DNA from: Gordonia gummivorans
Lineage (GTDB): Bacteria > Actinomycetota > Actinomycetes > Mycobacteriales > Mycobacteriaceae
Direction: 5' to 3'
Length of the DNA: 64,000 nucleotides
Assembly (NCBI RefSeq): GCF_022513585.1
Contig: NZ_JAKWBF010000026.1
Location: forward strand, 1-64,000
In this document: one piece after another, positions 4,950 through 64,000 of the stretch
Layout: each line of letters begins with the position of its first letter
How positions within the stretch are numbered: the first letter of the stretch is position 1
Position numbers and translations under genes: made by a program
The notes under the pieces: model-generated
Databases searched by the model: none
What the model was told of the DNA's origin: nothing
The model's input: only the letters and a program-made list of their open reading frames with translations

Positions 4950-5386
<437 letters not shown>

Positions 5387-8074: not shown

Positions 8075-8670
8075 GGGCTGTCCCCTTCCCGTCGCCGCAG
8101 CCCCTCCGCCCCCGCTGGCTGAGGTGCGAGGAGCGCAAGCCGCCGGGCTGAGGAGCCCCATGCGAGGTACGAGCATGGAGCGTCGTACGCCCAGCATGGG
8201 CATTCACTTGGAGGTGGAAGTCCTCCGGAGAGGAAGGTGGTTTAACTCCTAGTCGAGGGCAACTGCGTCACCGTGAGGTGGGGTGGGAAGGAAGCCGGAG
8301 ACGAAATCCTGCACCGAGGTACACGAACCGCATGTGAGGCATGCCAGCTGGGGTGAGCCAGCGACGCATGGTGAAGCCCGTTCCACCGAAGCGGCTGGTG
8401 TGTAAATGCGGCGGTTGTAGGAGGACAGTGAATGTTCTTATCTGGGGAGATCTGTCCTGGTGCGCCGACGAGGTTGTTGTCGGAGCGGCACCATCCGGGA
8501 GGGTGGTGGTGACGGGGCAGAAGTCAGCAGAGGCCGTAGTACCAGCGGGAATCGTGAGTGCTGGGAAGGGCTGAACGTCAGGAATTGATGGTTGTGAACA
8601 GCATTTCTCGTGACGACGACGGTGATCGCCGCCAACCCACGTGTGGTGGGGCAGACGATAGGAGGGACCG

Positions 8671-10008
8671 GTGAATCCGGAAGAGCCTTCGGCTGTGCGT
8701 AGTGGTCGTCCGGCGGATGCTGGGAGCAACGTCAGGGATGGCCAGGGTCTGTGGGAGCAGGTGTTTTCCCCGCAGAACCTGGCCGTTGCGAAGGAACGTG
8801 TCGATCGTAATCGGGGCGCGCCTGGTGTGGATGGCATGACCACCAGCGAGTTGGGTGGGTGGTGCCGGGAGCATTGGGGTGAGGTCAAGGTGGCGTTGGA
8901 TGCGGGCGCGTACCGTCCGTCGCCGGTCCGTCAGGTGTTGATTCCCAAACCTGATGGCGGGCAACGGAAGTTGGGGGTGCCCACGGTGCTGGATCGGTTG
9001 ATCCAGCAGGCTATCGCGCAAGTACTGACCCCGATCTTTGATCCGGGGTTCGTGCCGGTCTCCTATGGGTTCCGGCCGGGTAAGAGTGCCCACGATGCGG
9101 TCAAGGTCGCCAGGTTGGTGATCGAGCAGGGGTATCGGTGGGTGGTCGAGGTAGATCTGGATGCGTTCTTTGATCGGGTCAACCACGACATCCTCATGGC
9201 CCGGGTTGCGCGGAAAGTGTCAGACAAGAGGTTGCTCAAACTGATTCGCGCCTATCTTGAGGCGGGGATCATGGCCGATGGGGTGCGGCAGCCGACGGCA
9301 GTGGGGACTCCGCAGGGGTCGCCGTTGTCGCCGTTGTTGTCCAACATCATGCTCGATGATTTCGATCAGGAGATGTGGGCGCGTGGGCACCGCTTCGTTC
9401 GGTATGCCGACGATATCCGCGTGTTCGTGAAGTCCGAGCGGGCCGCGCAGCGGGTACTGGAGACCAGTACCCGACTGTTGGAGCAGCGGCTGAAATTGAA
9501 GGTGAATCGGCGCAAGTCCTCGATCAACCCGGCCAAGGCTGCGACCTTGCTGGGTTTCGGGTTCTACTTCGCTGCCGAGGTGGTCAAGCTACGGGTCGCA
9601 CCCAAGGCCTGGGCCCGGATGACAGCACGTGTCCGGGCGTTGACCGCTCGGCGCTGGAGTGTGTCGATGGGCTACCGCCTCATGCGACTCAACCAGTACG
9701 TACAAGGTTGGATGGGCTATTTCCGTATGGCCGAGACCGAGGGCAAGTTCCGAGGTCTCGACGGCTGGATGCGTCGCCGGTTGCGGCAGGTTCGGTGGAA
9801 AGAATGGAAGCAAGGCCCAACCCGCGCCCGTGAACTGCGCGCGCTGGGCGTTCCCGCCGGCAAAGCCCGGTCCTGGGGCGGCAGCAGTCGCGGCTCGTGG
9901 CCGGTTTCCGGCTCTCCCATTCTGCAGCGACCACTGACCAACGCCTACTGGGCCCGGTTGGGCCTGATCACCTTCCACCATGCCTGGGCCAAGTTTCAGA
10001 CGACCTGA
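8671..10008 (+). CDS. ltrA: Group II intron reverse transcriptase/maturase
   Basis: The 445-residue intron-encoded protein promotes splicing and target-primed reverse transcription of its own intron RNA. N-terminal RT blocks include RNRGAPGVDG, IPKPDGGQRKLGVPTV and VSYGFRPGKSAHDA. The catalytic YADD is at residues 245-248. The GIIM maturase (domain X) follows, with LNQYVQGWMGYF near residue 345. No C-terminal HNH endonuclease motif (paired CxxC and HH-N) is seen, so mobility probably relies on nicked or single-stranded targets. GTG 8671 is preceded by GGAGGG at 8661. The reading frame is intact. Confidence 0.95.
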   Translation: MNPEEPSAVRSGRPADAGSNVRDGQGLWEQVFSPQNLAVAKERVDRNRGAPGVDGMTTSELGGWCREHWGEVKVALDAGAYRPSPVRQVLIPKPDGGQRKLGVPTVLDRLIQQAIAQVLTPIFDPGFVPVSYGFRPGKSAHDAVKVARLVIEQGYRWVVEVDLDAFFDRVNHDILMARVARKVSDKRLLKLIRAYLEAGIMADGVRQPTAVGTPQGSPLSPLLSNIMLDDFDQEMWARGHRFVRYADDIRVFVKSERAAQRVLETSTRLLEQRLKLKVNRRKSSINPAKAATLLGFGFYFAAEVVKLRVAPKAWARMTARVRALTARRWSVSMGYRLMRLNQYVQGWMGYFRMAETEGKFRGLDGWMRRRLRQVRWKEWKQGPTRARELRALGVPAGKARSWGGSSRGSWPVSGSPILQRPLTNAYWARLGLITFHHAWAKFQTT

Positions 10009-10009
10009 C

Positions 10010-10083
10010 GAACCGCCGTATGCGAGACCCGCACGTACGGTGGTGTGAGAGGAGGGCCGGGAAACCCGGCCCTCCTACTCGAT
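10010..10083 (+). ncRNA. Group II intron domains V and VI
   Basis: Starting one base after the RT stop, GAACCGCCGTATGCG pairs with CGCACGTACGGTGGT to form the conserved domain V hairpin that carries the catalytic core. It is followed by AGGGCCGGG-aaa-CCCGGCCCT, the domain VI hairpin, and CCTACTCGAT, where the branch-point adenosine and the 3' splice site should lie. These are required for splicing, so the intron appears catalytically complete. Confidence 0.78.
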
Positions 10084-26108: not shown

Positions 26109-26612
26109 GTGGGACGGACCACCGGATCGTGGTTGTCGGGACCTCAGATCGGCCCCGCCGCCGGTGTCGACAACGAGTACCGCGGACAAGATCTCGGGCT
26201 GCCCGAAACGGGTCCCGGGTCATTGGCGAGCGGCTGGCCGCGCGTGGCGGCACTGCTCGTGGACTGGCTGTTGGCCGGCGGCATCTCGTTGCTGTTCGTG
26301 CGATTCGGCTCGCCCAACATGGGCACCGCGATCCTCGGCGTGTGGTTCGTGATCGGCGTACTCGCCGTGACGCTCTTCGGTTTCACCCCGGGCCAGTTCG
26401 CGATCGGACTGCGGGTGGCCCGTGTCGACCACGGACCGGAGCGCGCGTCGGCGGAGGCGGCCGGCGAGGCGCAGCCAGCGGCGGTCGGAATCATCCGGGC
26501 GGTCGCTCGACAGCTGCTCATCGTGTTCCTGGTGCCCGCACTCATCAACGACTACAACGGACGCGCCCTGCACGACCGGGCCACCGGCACCGCGATGGTG
26601 CGCACTCGCTGA
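26109..26612 (+). CDS. RDD-family membrane protein
   Basis: This 167-residue protein has a hydrophilic N-terminus, the RDD-type first helix WPRVAALLVDWLLAGGISLLF, a second helix (ILGVWFVIGVLAVTLFGFTPGQF), and a C-terminal helix AVARQLLIVFLVPALIND ending in RALHDRATGTAMV. That ending is typical of the family. Its role is not established; some RDD proteins act as ion antiporters. GTG 26109 follows AAGGAG. It corresponds to Rv2219A, divergent from glnA1 exactly as in mycobacteria. Confidence 0.88.
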   Translation: MGRTTGSWLSGPQIGPAAGVDNEYRGQDLGLPETGPGSLASGWPRVAALLVDWLLAGGISLLFVRFGSPNMGTAILGVWFVIGVLAVTLFGFTPGQFAIGLRVARVDHGPERASAEAAGEAQPAAVGIIRAVARQLLIVFLVPALINDYNGRALHDRATGTAMVRTR

Positions 26613-26636
26613 TCTGATCCGACGAGCACAGCTATT

Positions 26637-26828
26637 GTCCTCCTGAACTGCGGAAATCTGTGCGTGGGAGCCCTGCAGAGTGCACCTGTCGGGCTGGGGC
26701 GTACAGACATCCGACGGGTGGCGGCATCATCCCTTGGCCTGACCGGGTCGCCGCTGGAGTTGGCATCTGAAACGGTCGCCGTGACGTGCCTGGGAGGGCA
26801 ACCTTGCATCGGTGGCACCTGAGGAGGA
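26637..26828 (+). ncRNA. Candidate structured RNA (unassigned)
   Basis: About 190 non-coding bases are enclosed by complementary ends GTCCTCCT (26637) and AGGAGGAC (26828). Inside are a ten-pair stem CACCTGTCGG / CCGACGGGTG, a GCGGC...GCCGC stem and further short helices. A -10-like TATTGT (26633-26638) lies at its edge. It follows the RDD gene on the same strand and no gene starts downstream of it on plus, so it is not an obvious riboswitch. I could not match it to 6S RNA, tmRNA, SRP RNA, T-box or cobalamin elements. This is a weak call based on pairing alone. Confidence 0.3.
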
Positions 26829-26891
26829 CCGCTTCAGACGGCGCGGCTCTTCCCATCTTCACGATCGCCGACGACGTCGGCGGGTGGGTCG

Positions 26892-27068
26892 CTGATCCGA
26901 AGAGTTCGGGTGACCAGCCTTCCGACCTGGGGAAACACGATGGCGTCCTGCCCGAAAAATCTAGGGGAAGAAGTTTCTTCCCCGAGGTTCACAGTCGTCC
27001 CCCACAAATTTCTGGGGGAGGACACCAAGGGTCGGGGACGAAGTTTCTTCCCCGACTTTTTGTGGGCG
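26892..27068. repeat. Two-hairpin dispersed repeat, copy A
   Basis: About 177 bases match 63251-63423, with about 30 identical bases at GCGTCCTGCCCGAAAAATCT onward. Hairpin 1 is GGGGAAGAA-gt-TTCTTCCCC (26964-26983). It is nested in an outer pairing GTCCT...AGGAC. Hairpin 2 is GTCGGGGA...TTCCCCGAC (27031-27056). It occupies the 684-base gap between the RDD gene and the DUF4191 gene, the rest of which (apart from 26637-26828) shows nothing recognisable. Confidence 0.85.
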
Positions 27069-27296
27069 CATGTTCCTGGCGTCGCCGTCGCCGTCGCCGT
27101 CGGCGGAACGCGGCGACCGGCGATCGGTGACTGAGATCGGGCCCGTCAGCGTCCGCTTCCGGGATATACCCGGAGGACCACCGTCAGGGGCCCGATCCTG
27201 GCCACCGGCCCAACCGCCAACCCTTCCCGCCTCCACGCGAGTTGGTCGCCGACTCGTCAGGTTGGCCTGCTCGATCAGACCAGGCGCGGGAGGCGG

Positions 27297-28040
27297 TCAG
27301 CTCCGGCGACGCGCGGTGCGCTGCATGCTGCGCATCTTCGCATTCGCCGGGAGCGGGCCCTTCGGCATGCCGGGGCCGGGTGCCTTGGAGCCGAGAGCAG
27401 ACAGTCGTCCCTCGAGGGTGTCCATCCGCTTGCCGTCGATGTTCTTGGGCAGCTTGTTGATGTGGCGTTCGAGCTTGGAGAGCGGCACCTGCCCGTCGTC
27501 GTTGCCGACGACGATCTCGTAGATCGGGGTGTCGCCGACCACGCGCGCAGCCTTCTTCTTCTCCTGCGCGAGAAGGGACTTGACGCGGGCGGGGGAGCCC
27601 TCGGCGACGAGGATCACGCCCGGCTTGCCGATGACGCGGTGCACGGCGTCGAGGTGGGAGGTCCCGGAGACCGCCTGCTGAACACGCCACTGACCGCGCA
27701 TGTTGCCCAACGCCCACCCCGCGGCACCGGGCTGGCCCTCGGCCTTGGAGTAGACGCTGCGCTGCACTCGGCGGCCGAACAGGATGAACGCGGCCAGCAG
27801 ACCGAGCACCACGCCCAGCGGCACGAACAGCCATACGGTCCCGAAGACGAAGCCCAGCGCCACGAACACTGCGACGATCAGCACGAACAGACCGATCATG
27901 TACGGCAGAAGGCGCTTGTCCTCCTTGCGCTGCATCTGGAACGCCTGCCACAGCTGCTGGCGCCGTTCCTTCGATGCCTTCTTGCGGGCCTGTTTGGCCG
28001 CGGCCTTTGCCTCTTTGTCCTTGGACTGCGCCTTTGCCAT
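27297..28040 (-). CDS. DUF4191 membrane protein
   Basis: The 247-residue protein has a Lys/Ala/Gln-rich charged N-terminus (MAKAQSKDKEAKAAAKQARKK). Two adjacent transmembrane helices follow at about 49-70 and 75-95, then a cytoplasmic domain (SHLDAVHRVIGKPGVILVAEG; RVVGDTPIYEIVVGNDDGQVPL). This is the actinobacterial DUF4191 family, Rv2219 in M. tuberculosis. Its function is unknown; constant linkage to lipA and lipB suggests a housekeeping role. ATG 28040 is chosen because the sequence before it is not conserved. It lies 66 bases after lipA and is probably in the same transcript. Confidence 0.9.
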   Translation of the reverse strand: MAKAQSKDKEAKAAAKQARKKASKERRQQLWQAFQMQRKEDKRLLPYMIGLFVLIVAVFVALGFVFGTVWLFVPLGVVLGLLAAFILFGRRVQRSVYSKAEGQPGAAGWALGNMRGQWRVQQAVSGTSHLDAVHRVIGKPGVILVAEGSPARVKSLLAQEKKKAARVVGDTPIYEIVVGNDDGQVPLSKLERHINKLPKNIDGKRMDTLEGRLSALGSKAPGPGMPKGPLPANAKMRSMQRTARRRS

Positions 28041-28106
28041 GCACTCCAGCTTACGTCCGGCCGCCACCCCGGTCGGACACAGGTTGGACCTTCCCGCCGG
28101 CTGAGG

Positions 28107-58419: not shown

Positions 58420-58620
58420 TGCAAGCGGTCACCGCTCAATCGCCCTCGCGGCGAACCGGGGAACCACCAACTTCGGGCGGGTCGGACGTCTGTCGGACCA
58501 GTCTGAATCGGGGTGAATCGCGTACTGAAACCAGGTGTGTCCGGGTGACACACGGGGTAGAGGCATGCGTAGGGCCACTCTTCCGGCCCGAACCCGACAG
58601 CTAACTCGGTAGGCGGTAGA
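58420..58620 (+). promoter_or_regulatory. Cyclic di-AMP riboswitch (ydaO/yuaA class)
   Basis: Three conserved blocks of the ydaO element are in order. ACCGCTCAATC followed by GCGAACCGGGGAACCACC lies at 58431-58468. TCGGGGTGAATCGCG lies at 58508-58522. GCCCGAACCCGACAGCTAAC plus TCGGTAGGCG lies at 58586-58615. It ends about 30 bases before the NlpC/P60 gene. In actinobacteria this class controls wall-hydrolase and rpf genes and turns expression off when c-di-AMP is high. The 5' limit is approximate. Confidence 0.9.
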
Positions 58621-58647
58621 GGGAGAACTTGAAGGAGAACTCGCTTC

Positions 58648-62129: not shown

Positions 62130-63254
62130 ATGAAGCGAACTCTGTTGATCACCAACGACTTTCCGCCGCGGCCCGGTGGCATCCAGTCGTACCTGCAGAA
62201 CCTTGTCGATCTGCTGCCGCCCGACGAGATCGTCGTGTACGCACCGCGTTGGCGTAAGCAGTCCCACGTCGAGTTCGACGCCGCGGTGCCCTACAAGGTG
62301 TATCGGCACCCGACGACGCTGATGCTGCCGACGCCGCTGGTGGCGCGCCGTGCCGCTCGAATCGTGGCGCAGGAGAACATTTCGACGGTGTGGTTCGGTG
62401 CGGCCGCACCACTGGCGGTGCTGGCCCCCGCCGTTCGACGCGCCGGCGCGCAGCGGGTGATCGCCAGTACTCATGGCCACGAGGTCGGTTGGTCGATGCT
62501 CCCGGTGGCCCGCCAGGTTCTCGGGTTCATCGGTCGACATGTCGATGTGATCACGTTCGTAAGCCGTTACACGCGTGGGCGTTTCGCGTCGGCCTTCGGT
62601 CGCCACGCCGCACTCGAGTACCTGCCGCCGGGTGTCGACGTCGAACGCTTCACGCCGAATGCGGAGCGGCGCACCGAGATTCGGAGCCGGCTCGGCCTCG
62701 GCGACCGTCCGACCATCCTCTGCCTGTCGCGGCTCGTGCCTCGGAAAGGTCAGGACACGTTGATCCGGGCACTGCCGCTGATCCGCCGCACGGTGCCCGA
62801 CGCGGTCCTGGTCATCGTCGGTGGGGGGCCGTACGCCGACAAGCTCCACCAACTCGCCGACGAGTCCGGCGTGGCCGACCACGTGGTGTTCACCGGAGGC
62901 GTTGCGTCCGAAGACCTTCCCGCCTATCACAGCGTCGCCGACGTGTTCGCGATGCCGGCCCGGACCCGTGGCGGCGGCCTGGACGTAGAGGGTCTCGGGA
63001 TCGTCTATCTCGAGGCGTCGGCCTGCGGGGTGCCGGTGGTTGCCGGCCAATCCGGGGGTGCGCCCGAGACCGTTGTCGAGGGGGTCACCGGCACCGTCGT
63101 GGACGGCACCGACGTCGACGCGGTCGCCATGGCCATCCTGTCGATCCTCGGAGATCGGGCGGCGGCCGCCGAGATGGGCAGGCAGGCAAGACGTTTCGTC
63201 GTCGATAATTGGCAGTGGCAGCACATGGCCGCACGGCTGCGGCAGTTGCTCTGA
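62130..63254 (+). CDS. pimB: GDP-mannose-dependent alpha-(1-6)-phosphatidylinositol monomannoside mannosyltransferase
   Basis: The 374-residue GT4 glycosyltransferase (PimB', Rv2188c) adds the second mannose to phosphatidylinositol monomannoside, a precursor of PIMs, lipomannan and lipoarabinomannan. Motifs include ITNDFPPRPGGIQSYL, STHGHEVGWS, PGVDVERF, CLSRLVPRKGQDTLI and the GT4 EX7E-type GLGIVYLEASACGVPVV. It acts on the inner face of the membrane. ATG 62130 is used. Presence of PimB' supports a mycolate-type actinomycete. The two-hairpin repeat begins at its stop codon. Confidence 0.94.
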   Translation: MKRTLLITNDFPPRPGGIQSYLQNLVDLLPPDEIVVYAPRWRKQSHVEFDAAVPYKVYRHPTTLMLPTPLVARRAARIVAQENISTVWFGAAAPLAVLAPAVRRAGAQRVIASTHGHEVGWSMLPVARQVLGFIGRHVDVITFVSRYTRGRFASAFGRHAALEYLPPGVDVERFTPNAERRTEIRSRLGLGDRPTILCLSRLVPRKGQDTLIRALPLIRRTVPDAVLVIVGGGPYADKLHQLADESGVADHVVFTGGVASEDLPAYHSVADVFAMPARTRGGGLDVEGLGIVYLEASACGVPVVAGQSGGAPETVVEGVTGTVVDGTDVDAVAMAILSILGDRAAAAEMGRQARRFVVDNWQWQHMAARLRQLL

Positions 63255-63423
63255 TCCGAAGAGGACGGTGACCAACCCGCTGAACTGGGGAATGTGTCAG
63301 CGTCCTGCCCGAAAAATCTAGGGGAAGAACTTCTTCCCCGAGGTTCGCAGTCATCCGCGAGAATTTTCTGGGGGAGGACACCAAGGGTAGGGGAAGAAGT
63401 TTCTTCCCCTACTTTTGTGGCGG
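63251..63423. repeat. Two-hairpin dispersed repeat, copy B
   Basis: This is the second copy of the element at 26892-27068. It starts with CTGATCCGAAGAG at the pimB' stop. It keeps GCGTCCTGCCCGAAAAATCT, hairpin 1 as GGGGAAGAA-c-TTCTTCCCC (one base shorter loop than copy A), GGGGGAGGACACCAAGGGT, and hairpin 2 as GTAGGGGAAGAAG...TTCTTCCCCTAC, with the stem ends changed in a compensating way. Confidence 0.85.
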
Positions 63424-63477
63424 ATCGCGATTCCTTCGCTCGACGACGATGTTCCCGGTTCCGAGGACTGCGCTGCG

Positions 63478-63500
63478 ACAGGGACCTCGTCCCTGTTTCT
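63478..63500 (+). terminator. Hairpin terminator after pimB'
   Basis: ACAGGGAC-ctc-GTCCCTGT followed by TTCT is a compact intrinsic terminator for plus-strand transcription. Confidence 0.65.
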
Positions 63501-63503
63501 AAT

Positions 63504-63534
63504 CAGAGACCGTCGGAACCGCTGACGGTCTCTG
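63504..63534. terminator. Second hairpin between pimB' and fadD15
   Basis: CAGAGACCGTC-ggaaccgct-GACGGTCTCTG forms an 11-bp perfect stem. It can serve the minus-strand fadD15 transcript. The remaining bases up to 63652 hold nothing I recognise. Confidence 0.55.
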
Positions 63535-63652
63535 ACTACGAGTGAGGTTTCTGTGACGGTGGCCGCAATTGCGGCGGCGAGCAGGTTTCTGGCGACAAGT
63601 GCGGCTTCTGCGACGAGGCCGCGCTCCTCCGCGTGGGCGAGTGAGTCGACGG

Positions 63653-64000
63653 CTACTTCGCGTAGATCGCCTCGATGTCGTCGGCGAACTTCTCGGCGAC
63701 GACGTTGCGCTTGACCTTCAGAGTGGGGGTCATCTCCCCGGTCTCCTCGGTGAAATCGGTGGGCAGAATCCGGAACTTCTTGATGGCCTCGGCATGCGAC
63801 ACGGTCGCGTTGGCGTCGTCGATCGCGGCCTGCACCGCTGCGCGCAGATCCGGGTCGTCGGCCAGTTGGGCGACCGTGGCCGCTGCCGGCTTGCCGTTGC
63901 GTTCCTTCCAGGCCGGGAATGCCTCCGGGTCGATGGTGATGAGTGTCGCGATGAACGGCTTCTGGTCGCCGACGACCATCGCCTGTGACACGAGGGCGCT
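63653..64000 (-). CDS. fadD15: Long-chain fatty-acid-CoA ligase, C-terminal part (FadD15-like)
   Basis: Only the last 115 residues are in the window; the gene continues beyond base 64000. The sequence ([51 protein letters not shown] at the end) is the C-terminal lid domain of bacterial long-chain acyl-CoA synthetases. The catalytic Lys lies in TPTLKVKR. It corresponds to Rv2187. The AMP-binding domain lies outside, so completeness cannot be judged. Confidence 0.92.

Follow-up and report, generated by a model that had tools for sequence, protein, structure and literature searches.

The described repeats closest to the element reported here are the repetitive extragenic palindromic sequences (REPs), the mycobacterial interspersed repetitive units (MIRUs), and the miniature elements of the IS200/IS605 family. 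In the passages cited, REPs are located between convergent and unidirectional open reading frames (ORFs), 3′ of coding regions (PMC3733652), and are linked to REP-associated tyrosine transposases (RAYTs) (PMC2817692). The relevant portion of a paper on Y1 transposases mentions a rare class with hairpins that have a CnGA foot, places the Actinobacteridae of its sample only in subclass 1.1, and gives, as a general description of IS200/IS605 miniature elements, subterminal hairpins together with a short tetranucleotide flanking the left end (PMC6006769). MIRUs are outlined as apparently mobile repeats that insert at start codons and carry a coupled ORF (PMC12548453). Here we analyze a repeat first recognized as two copies in a 64,000-nt stretch of Gordonia gummivorans contig NZ_JAKWBF010000026.1 (the window, below, means this whole stretch), using the 5.3-Mb genome from which it comes and 58 other Gordonia genomes. 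Our results lead us to lean toward the view that it is a Gordonia-specific dispersed repeat with a terminator-like core, carried in this genome in nonautonomous mobile units that land at CTGA.

The element resembles REPs and bacterial interspersed mosaic elements (BIMEs) in its high copy number, its palindromic and mosaic structure, its patchy presence among species, and its intergenic position in convergent or codirectional contexts, which account for 52 and 28, respectively, of the 85 placed loci of its own genome (5 are divergent). Unlike REPs and BIMEs, it has a core of about 120 bp with three hairpins that lies in larger units, and these units have stop codon-containing ends and are joined head to tail. 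It also differs in the absence of a conserved unpaired GTAG or GTGG foot (in 30 own-genome copies, the foot GT of hairpin 3 is followed by A in 16, C in 13, and a gap in 1, and these bases pair within the stem) and of any Y1/RAYT match in its genome. With MIRUs, compared by description only, it shares apparent mobility and a position on the signals of neighboring genes, which are start codons in the MIRU case (PMC12548453); MIRUs have a coupled ORF, whereas the present element is hairpin-rich and follows gene ends, mostly facing a convergent gene. The apparent subterminal hairpins, the short tetranucleotide that seems to flank the left end, and the fixed orientation recall the miniature IS200/IS605 elements as generally described (PMC6006769), but the genome has no recognizable Y1 transposase. 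The element looks like a bidirectional intrinsic terminator in that its G+C-rich hairpins tend to precede a T run and lie between convergent stop codons, but it has three hairpins, is strongly conserved in sequence, is dispersed as a repeat, and mostly has three T's only. It would work like the REP-type and MIRU repeats, but of the REP features it lacks both the RAYT and the GTAG.

The core comprises three consecutive hairpins within about 120 bases, which can be written as GGGGAAGAA..TTCTTCCCC, then GTC.TCC.C..GGGGGAGGAC, and then GGGGA.GAAGTTTC.TCCCC, and alignments of copies indicate that its ends are imperfect inverted repeats. The foot pair of the last hairpin is A-T in 16, C-G in 8, a C-T mismatch in 4, C-C in 1, and a gap in 1 of the 30 own-genome copies. 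Both copies reported in the initial annotation (26892-27068 and 63251-63423) are present, and neither is due to chance, because the 20-mer GCGTCCTGCCCGAAAAATCT, which occurs twice in the window with up to three mismatches (chance expectation, 0.00), never gave such a pair in 100 shuffles (maximum, 0). The single-base indels that had been noted in the loops are likewise found when the two copies are aligned. The two hairpins of the initial annotation are both real, but the complete count is three, with a central hairpin between the named pair. The proposed size of about 175 bp has to be revised: the stated ends do not coincide with those of the unit, which extends further, and copy 1 lies in the second of a tandem pair. 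Unit ends, stop codon position, and tandem arrangement had gone unnoticed in that annotation. The two-sided stem change described for hairpin 2 (GTCGGGGA..TCCCCGAC versus GTAGGGGA..TCCCCTAC) is present but is common rather than universal among the 30 own copies. That no named family matches was borne out: no Rfam family reached its gathering cutoff at copy 1 or copy 2, and among the papers listed from the open-access literature, to which the search was confined, none described Gordonia repeats of this sort.

The expectation of many copies per genome proved correct. BLAST of copy 1 against its own genome returned at least 77 matches with both strands counted (best 40 of 190 candidates); copy 2 is among them with an E value of 2.5e-45 and is outscored by 13 other places. 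R1, a covariance model of the core built from 30 own-genome copies, gave 151 matches at an E value of ≤1 (best 150 of 1265 candidates), and removal by eye of 9 duplicates on the opposite strand leaves about 140 core places, a few of which are pieces at contig ends. Contig ends of the own genome (G000) lie within a few hundred bases of repeats, for example at C16:185-256, C79:244-315, C57:197-268, C36:73-146, and C30:1-87. The assembly probably breaks at the repeats, because several contigs start or stop so close to them, and the own-genome copy number may be a lower bound.

Outside this genome, the core is patchy. R1 matches at an E value of ≤0.001 were found in 12 of 59 Gordonia genomes including the source (11 of the 58 others, as diverged relatives). 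The palindrome GGGGAMGAA-N0-6-TTCKTCCCC, scanned with exact stems only so that diverged stems escape the pattern, has 110 occurrences in the source genome, 15 in G051, and 2 in G027. The remaining 198 of the 201 genomes sampled from the family have none, and 186 of them belong to 30 other genera; the reversed control gave 0 except for 1 in one genome. An exact-core scan of named genomes, a set that possibly does not include the source genome, returned no match. The palindrome is also found in named genomes (at least 101 stretches) and in viral contigs (54), with many occurrences in unrelated bacteria; these stretches are not used as evidence. A plasmid or phage source is not supported, as window positions 26850-27150 have no blastn match in the plasmid or phage collection. 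In G053 and G020 (L045, L056, and L141-L148), the core is of a divergent type, its stems exemplified by GGGGAAAGA / TTCTTTCC; G053 also has copies that are close neighbors.

The initial annotation held that structure rather than peptide is preserved and proposed a covariance model as a check; compensatory change across species supports this view, but covariation among own copies alone is slight. Standard pairs make up 86.8% of the pair cells in 46 distinct sites from the source and other species, and compensatory change affects 18 of the 31 stem pairs (137 cells); the alignment was fitted to the structure of the model, and related sequences count repeatedly in it. These sites include 7 own loci among 38 sources and remained after 56 of 102 rows had been dropped as opposite-strand or identical duplicates. 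Shuffled controls of the same sites had a mean of 79.6% paired cells (highest, 81.0) and 61 compensatory cells (highest, 78), and controls with a slid structure reached at most 66.4%. The 30 own-genome copies alone show covariation in only 2 of the 25 pairs of their predicted consensus fold. Folded as a single strand, copy 2 forms separate hairpins. A conserved peptide is not supported, as indels of 1 to 2 bases occur in the loops across copies (seen in alignments, with no formal frame test).

In the source genome, the core rides in larger units joined head to tail; tandem copies are also a feature of MIRUs. The unit begins with CTGAYYCGAAGAG (also written CTGATCCGAAGAGTTCGGTGACC), has an apparent left-end hairpin, CCGAAGAGTTCGG, and closes with CTTCCCGCCTCCACGATCGCC, a small hairpin, and GGGTGGGTCG, after which another CTGA mostly follows. 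The two ends, compared by eye, are not inverted copies of one another. Directly successive recognized ends are spaced from 160 bp (L075) to 462 bp (L178), with exactly 338 bp between left ends in L071, L074, L081, L084, and L171; unit length here is the distance between recognized ends, and a missed end could conceal two units. Some units contain no core, among them the one at 26614-26891 that adjoins the unit of copy 1. R2, a junction model trained on 29 own-genome stretches, found 116 matches in the source genome at an E value of <1e-3, the training stretches included, and 143 at an E value of ≤1 (best 150 of 19325 candidates). Elsewhere, it gave one marginal match each in 6 of the 58 other Gordonia genomes (best, 3.6e-4). 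Given this near absence, the unit ends are largely restricted to the source species, with the core being distributed more widely. Aligned copies of G051, G053, and G020 have no common flank around the core comparable to the own-genome units. The right-end hairpin has 94.3% paired cells and 19 two-sided ones, and neither value was reached in any of 500 shuffles; two-sided change affects 2 of its 6 pairs, a count reached by 419 of the 500. In L028, L070, L095, and L178, a different repeat ending in CCGCTCC stands directly before the CTGA left end and is possibly a second right-end type.

Left ends were located in 108 loci oriented by their core or right end, and 95 distinct ones are in the sense direction and 5 are antisense (reversed-motif control, 1), a count that describes the order among parts and not their direction relative to genes. 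In 29 of these 95, the TGA coincides exactly with the stop codon of a called gene, and another 39 come after a right end; gene calls here come from a home-made codon model and are not annotation. The base preceding CTGA is variable among the 29. In the array of copy 1, a single base separates the TGA (26610-26612) of the gene at 26109..26612 from the CTGA of the first unit (26614-26617). Direct observations are the number of copies, the ends of the units and their tandem order, the fixed orientation of these ends relative to each other and to the core, the placement at gene ends, the conservation of stems through compensatory changes, and the lineage-specific presence.

Gene context was recorded for 88 own-genome loci out of about 140, mainly the better-scoring matches plus one subfamily and with one array counted twice (L002, L108). 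The context is convergent in 52, codirectional with the gene in 25, against the gene in 3, divergent in 5, and undetermined in 3. Among gene pairs of the window, 11 of 53 are convergent, and without the two gaps that hold the element, 9 are convergent and 11 divergent of 51. Against this background, which consists of the 51 gene pairs of the window only, the convergent excess has a P value of 9e-7 and the divergent deficit a P value of 0.011. Other Gordonia genomes provided 38 loci from ten genomes, and 33 could be placed (20 convergent, 9 tandem, and 4 divergent). Of these 33, L043 and L044 are orthologous to each other, and L045 and L056 come from a single cluster. Both stop codons are within 40 nt of the core in 12 of the 20 convergent loci. 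Such placement is the one published for REPs, between convergent and unidirectional ORFs and 3′ of coding regions, in the passage cited (PMC3733652). By analogy, the element could be a BIME-like DNA site at which gyrase or a nucleoid protein binds and relieves supercoils between convergent genes, and the fact that some cores match R1 on both strands is in keeping with this. We nevertheless regard that explanation as improbable; the G-T pairs in the stems are compatible with a folded strand no less than with a site in duplex DNA.

After codirectional genes, the element is on the same strand as the gene in 25 cases versus 3 (P = 3e-5), and together with the conserved stems this would be expected of a small-RNA family or of RNA-processing or stability elements in 3′ untranslated regions. 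The convergent placement and the matches on both strands, however, single out neither RNA strand, and no promoter-like site was detected in the two scanned regions by a scan that covers one set of promoter types; we consider an RNA element very improbable. Our preferred reading is that the core may be a portable bidirectional transcription terminator, because it lies between stop codons, is similar on both strands, and, whichever strand is read, tends to have a T run past its final hairpin. Runs of at least three T's are present in 40 of 43 readable tails on the plus strand and in 28 of 38 on the minus strand. Against this, the terminator scan detected 1 site in the region of copy 1 and 3 in that of copy 2 (shuffle mean, 0.6 for each region), which is close to the shuffled level, and of the hairpins, only hairpin 1, on the minus strand, was flagged in both copies.

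The initial annotation had listed a miniature mobile element among its candidates. The recognizable unit ends, the tandem units, and the lineage-specific presence speak for this part, but neither an enzyme nor a target duplication has been found. In most listed units, CTGA is present at the left end and recurs past the right end, and the left flanks of type-2 units, compared by eye, differ among copies unless a right end precedes (14 of the 18 copies in which a left end was found). The unit ends, their fixed orientation, the tandem order, and the variable left flanks give the impression of site-specific insertion at CTGA in which the target is restored, and the units have probably spread as mobile DNA, as far as can be judged from sequence comparison. 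At one orthologous site, G031 and G032 have the segment, G027 has a decayed form of it, and G034 and G025 lack it, a pattern that fits gain by lineage, or loss in G034 and G025, and not recent movement.

We therefore propose a mechanism in which mobility, target choice, and termination are the interpretive parts. The nonautonomous units, 160 to 462 bp between recognized ends, would insert at CTGA, often at the stop codon of the upstream gene, and an insertion on a stop codon would leave the host gene with a stop codon. Because a unit mostly has another CTGA after its right end, further units could join head to tail. The three-hairpin core, then situated after stop codons and mostly between convergent genes, would end transcription in both directions. 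More specifically, and only tentatively, the element may be a cassette with its own stop codon and a two-way terminator that lands on CTGA stop codons by means of a recombinase, regenerates the site, and so accumulates head to tail at gene ends.

The units could instead be purely selfish miniature elements with no role in termination, in which case the bias toward gene 3′ ends would result from the loss of insertions in genes and promoters, and the hairpins would serve transposition, as single-stranded DNA that a transposase recognizes. The lineage-specific amplification, the tandem units with recognizable ends, and the compensatory changes in the right-end hairpin near the CTGA junction agree with this explanation. 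We hold it to be unlikely, though worth keeping in mind: cores of the other Gordonia species inspected stand without unit ends, yet their three stems carry compensatory changes, and the proximity of both stop codons to the core in 12 of 20 convergent cases of other species is not what it would lead one to expect.

Several findings weigh against a mobile terminator-bearing unit. In the consensus fold of the own copies (n = 30), hairpins 1 and 3 pair with each other to form a single long arm, with the central hairpin inside it, instead of separate hairpins; the best single fold of copy 1 has the same shape. Only three T's in a row are present in 29 of the 43 readable plus-strand tails, and hairpin 3 on the plus strand was flagged by the terminator scan in neither copy. 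Among the 95 left ends, 26 fit neither a called stop codon nor a recognized right end, and 1 more is located within a called gene; a few of the 26 are those preceded by the CCGCTCC repeat (L028, L070, L095, and L178). CTGA is in any case the most frequent stop context (29 of 54 window genes and 27 of 60 other genes); therefore, landing on stop codons may partly reflect the frequency of CTGA and the loss of harmful insertions. The Y1 (REP-type) transposase domain PF01797 has no match in the own genome at an E value of ≤0.001 (6 of 6 candidates inspected; control positive in 5 of 14 genomes), and a RAYT/Y1-driven REP is not supported on this basis. An IS110-driven unit likewise lacks support, as the single IS110 copy has only weak, chance-like matches to unit ends nearby. 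No unit with an internal gene was recognized by eye in 20 further loci, although a few ends flank called genes. The flanks of copy 2 have best matches of 78% (upstream gene) and 87% (downstream gene), and with no close relative for comparison, an empty site or target duplication cannot be read in the source species. All five sites compared between the sister genomes G031 and G032 are shared, with no recent movement seen, and the absence of the orthologous segment from G034 and G025 could be a deletion.

TABLE 1 Window positions of the two copies, their units, and the adjacent genes
Feature	Position	Strand	Basis
Gene upstream of the copy 1 array; stop TGA 26610-26612	26109..26612	+	home-made gene call
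Upstream unit without three-hairpin core; left end CTGATCCGACGAG	26614..26891	+	sequence
R2 match in upstream unit	G000:C31:26846-26917		E value 2.2e-16; stretch among the 29 used to build R2
Right-end hairpin of upstream unit, GCCGAC-GAC-GTCGGC, then GGGTGGGTCG	26867-26881	+	sequence
Unit holding copy 1; left end CTGATCCGAAGAG at 26892; right end at ~27256 degenerate, putative	26892..27256	+	sequence, BLAST, alignments
Three-hairpin core, copy 1	26947..27068	+	R1 match, 141.3 bits (copy 1 among R1 training copies)
Hairpin 1 of copy 1, GGGGAAGAAGTTTCTTCCCC; on minus strand followed by TAGATTTTTC (terminator-like)	26964..26983	.	sequence, terminator scan
Central hairpin of copy 1, GTCGTCCCCC...GGGGGAGGAC	26994..27023	.	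sequence, folding
Hairpin 3 of copy 1, GTCGGGGACGAAGTTTCTTCCCCGAC; then TTTTT 27057-27061	27031..27056	.	sequence; unflagged in terminator scan
Extra foldback module GATCGGGCC...GGCCCGATC	27127..27197	.	sequence; recurs 3′ of core in other copies
Convergent gene 3′ of the copy 1 array	27297..28067	-	home-made gene call
Gene whose TGA stop (63252-63254) is the TGA of the copy 2 left end	62130..63254	+	sequence, gene call
Copy 2: left end CTGATCCGAAGAG and core (core 63304-63424)	63251..63424	+	sequence, R1 match
Copy 2 hairpins; T run 63413-63416	63321-63339, 63350-63379, 63387-63412	+	sequence, R1 match
Convergent gene 3′ of copy 2, cut by window edge	63653..63991	-	gene call

At window positions 63425-63650, and also in L020 and L030, another common module (GGATCGCGATTCCTTCG... 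GAGGACTGCGCT) follows the core in a few copies. Elsewhere, the window contains a group II intron at 8267-10083 on the plus strand (Rfam domains at 8267-8436, 8486-8571, and 10011-10083 around a called gene at 9052-10008), a c-di-AMP riboswitch at 58423-58630 on the plus strand (Rfam), and an RNase P RNA gene at 4953-5379 on the minus strand (Rfam).

The element is real, abundant, structured, and lineage-specific and represents a new variant among dispersed palindromic repeats, and the landing on stop codons proposed for it is its most interesting part. If the reading is true, mobile DNA would be nearly harmless in a gene-dense genome by landing on stop codons, with the stop kept and transcription ended. 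The element would then correspond, in Gordonia, to REPs and MIRUs, in a genome where no REP-type transposase was detected, and the question of what moves such repeats would become testable. To our knowledge, terminators are poorly understood in the group to which Gordonia belongs, and the roughly 140 related gene-end sites form a natural library for studies of termination in this group.
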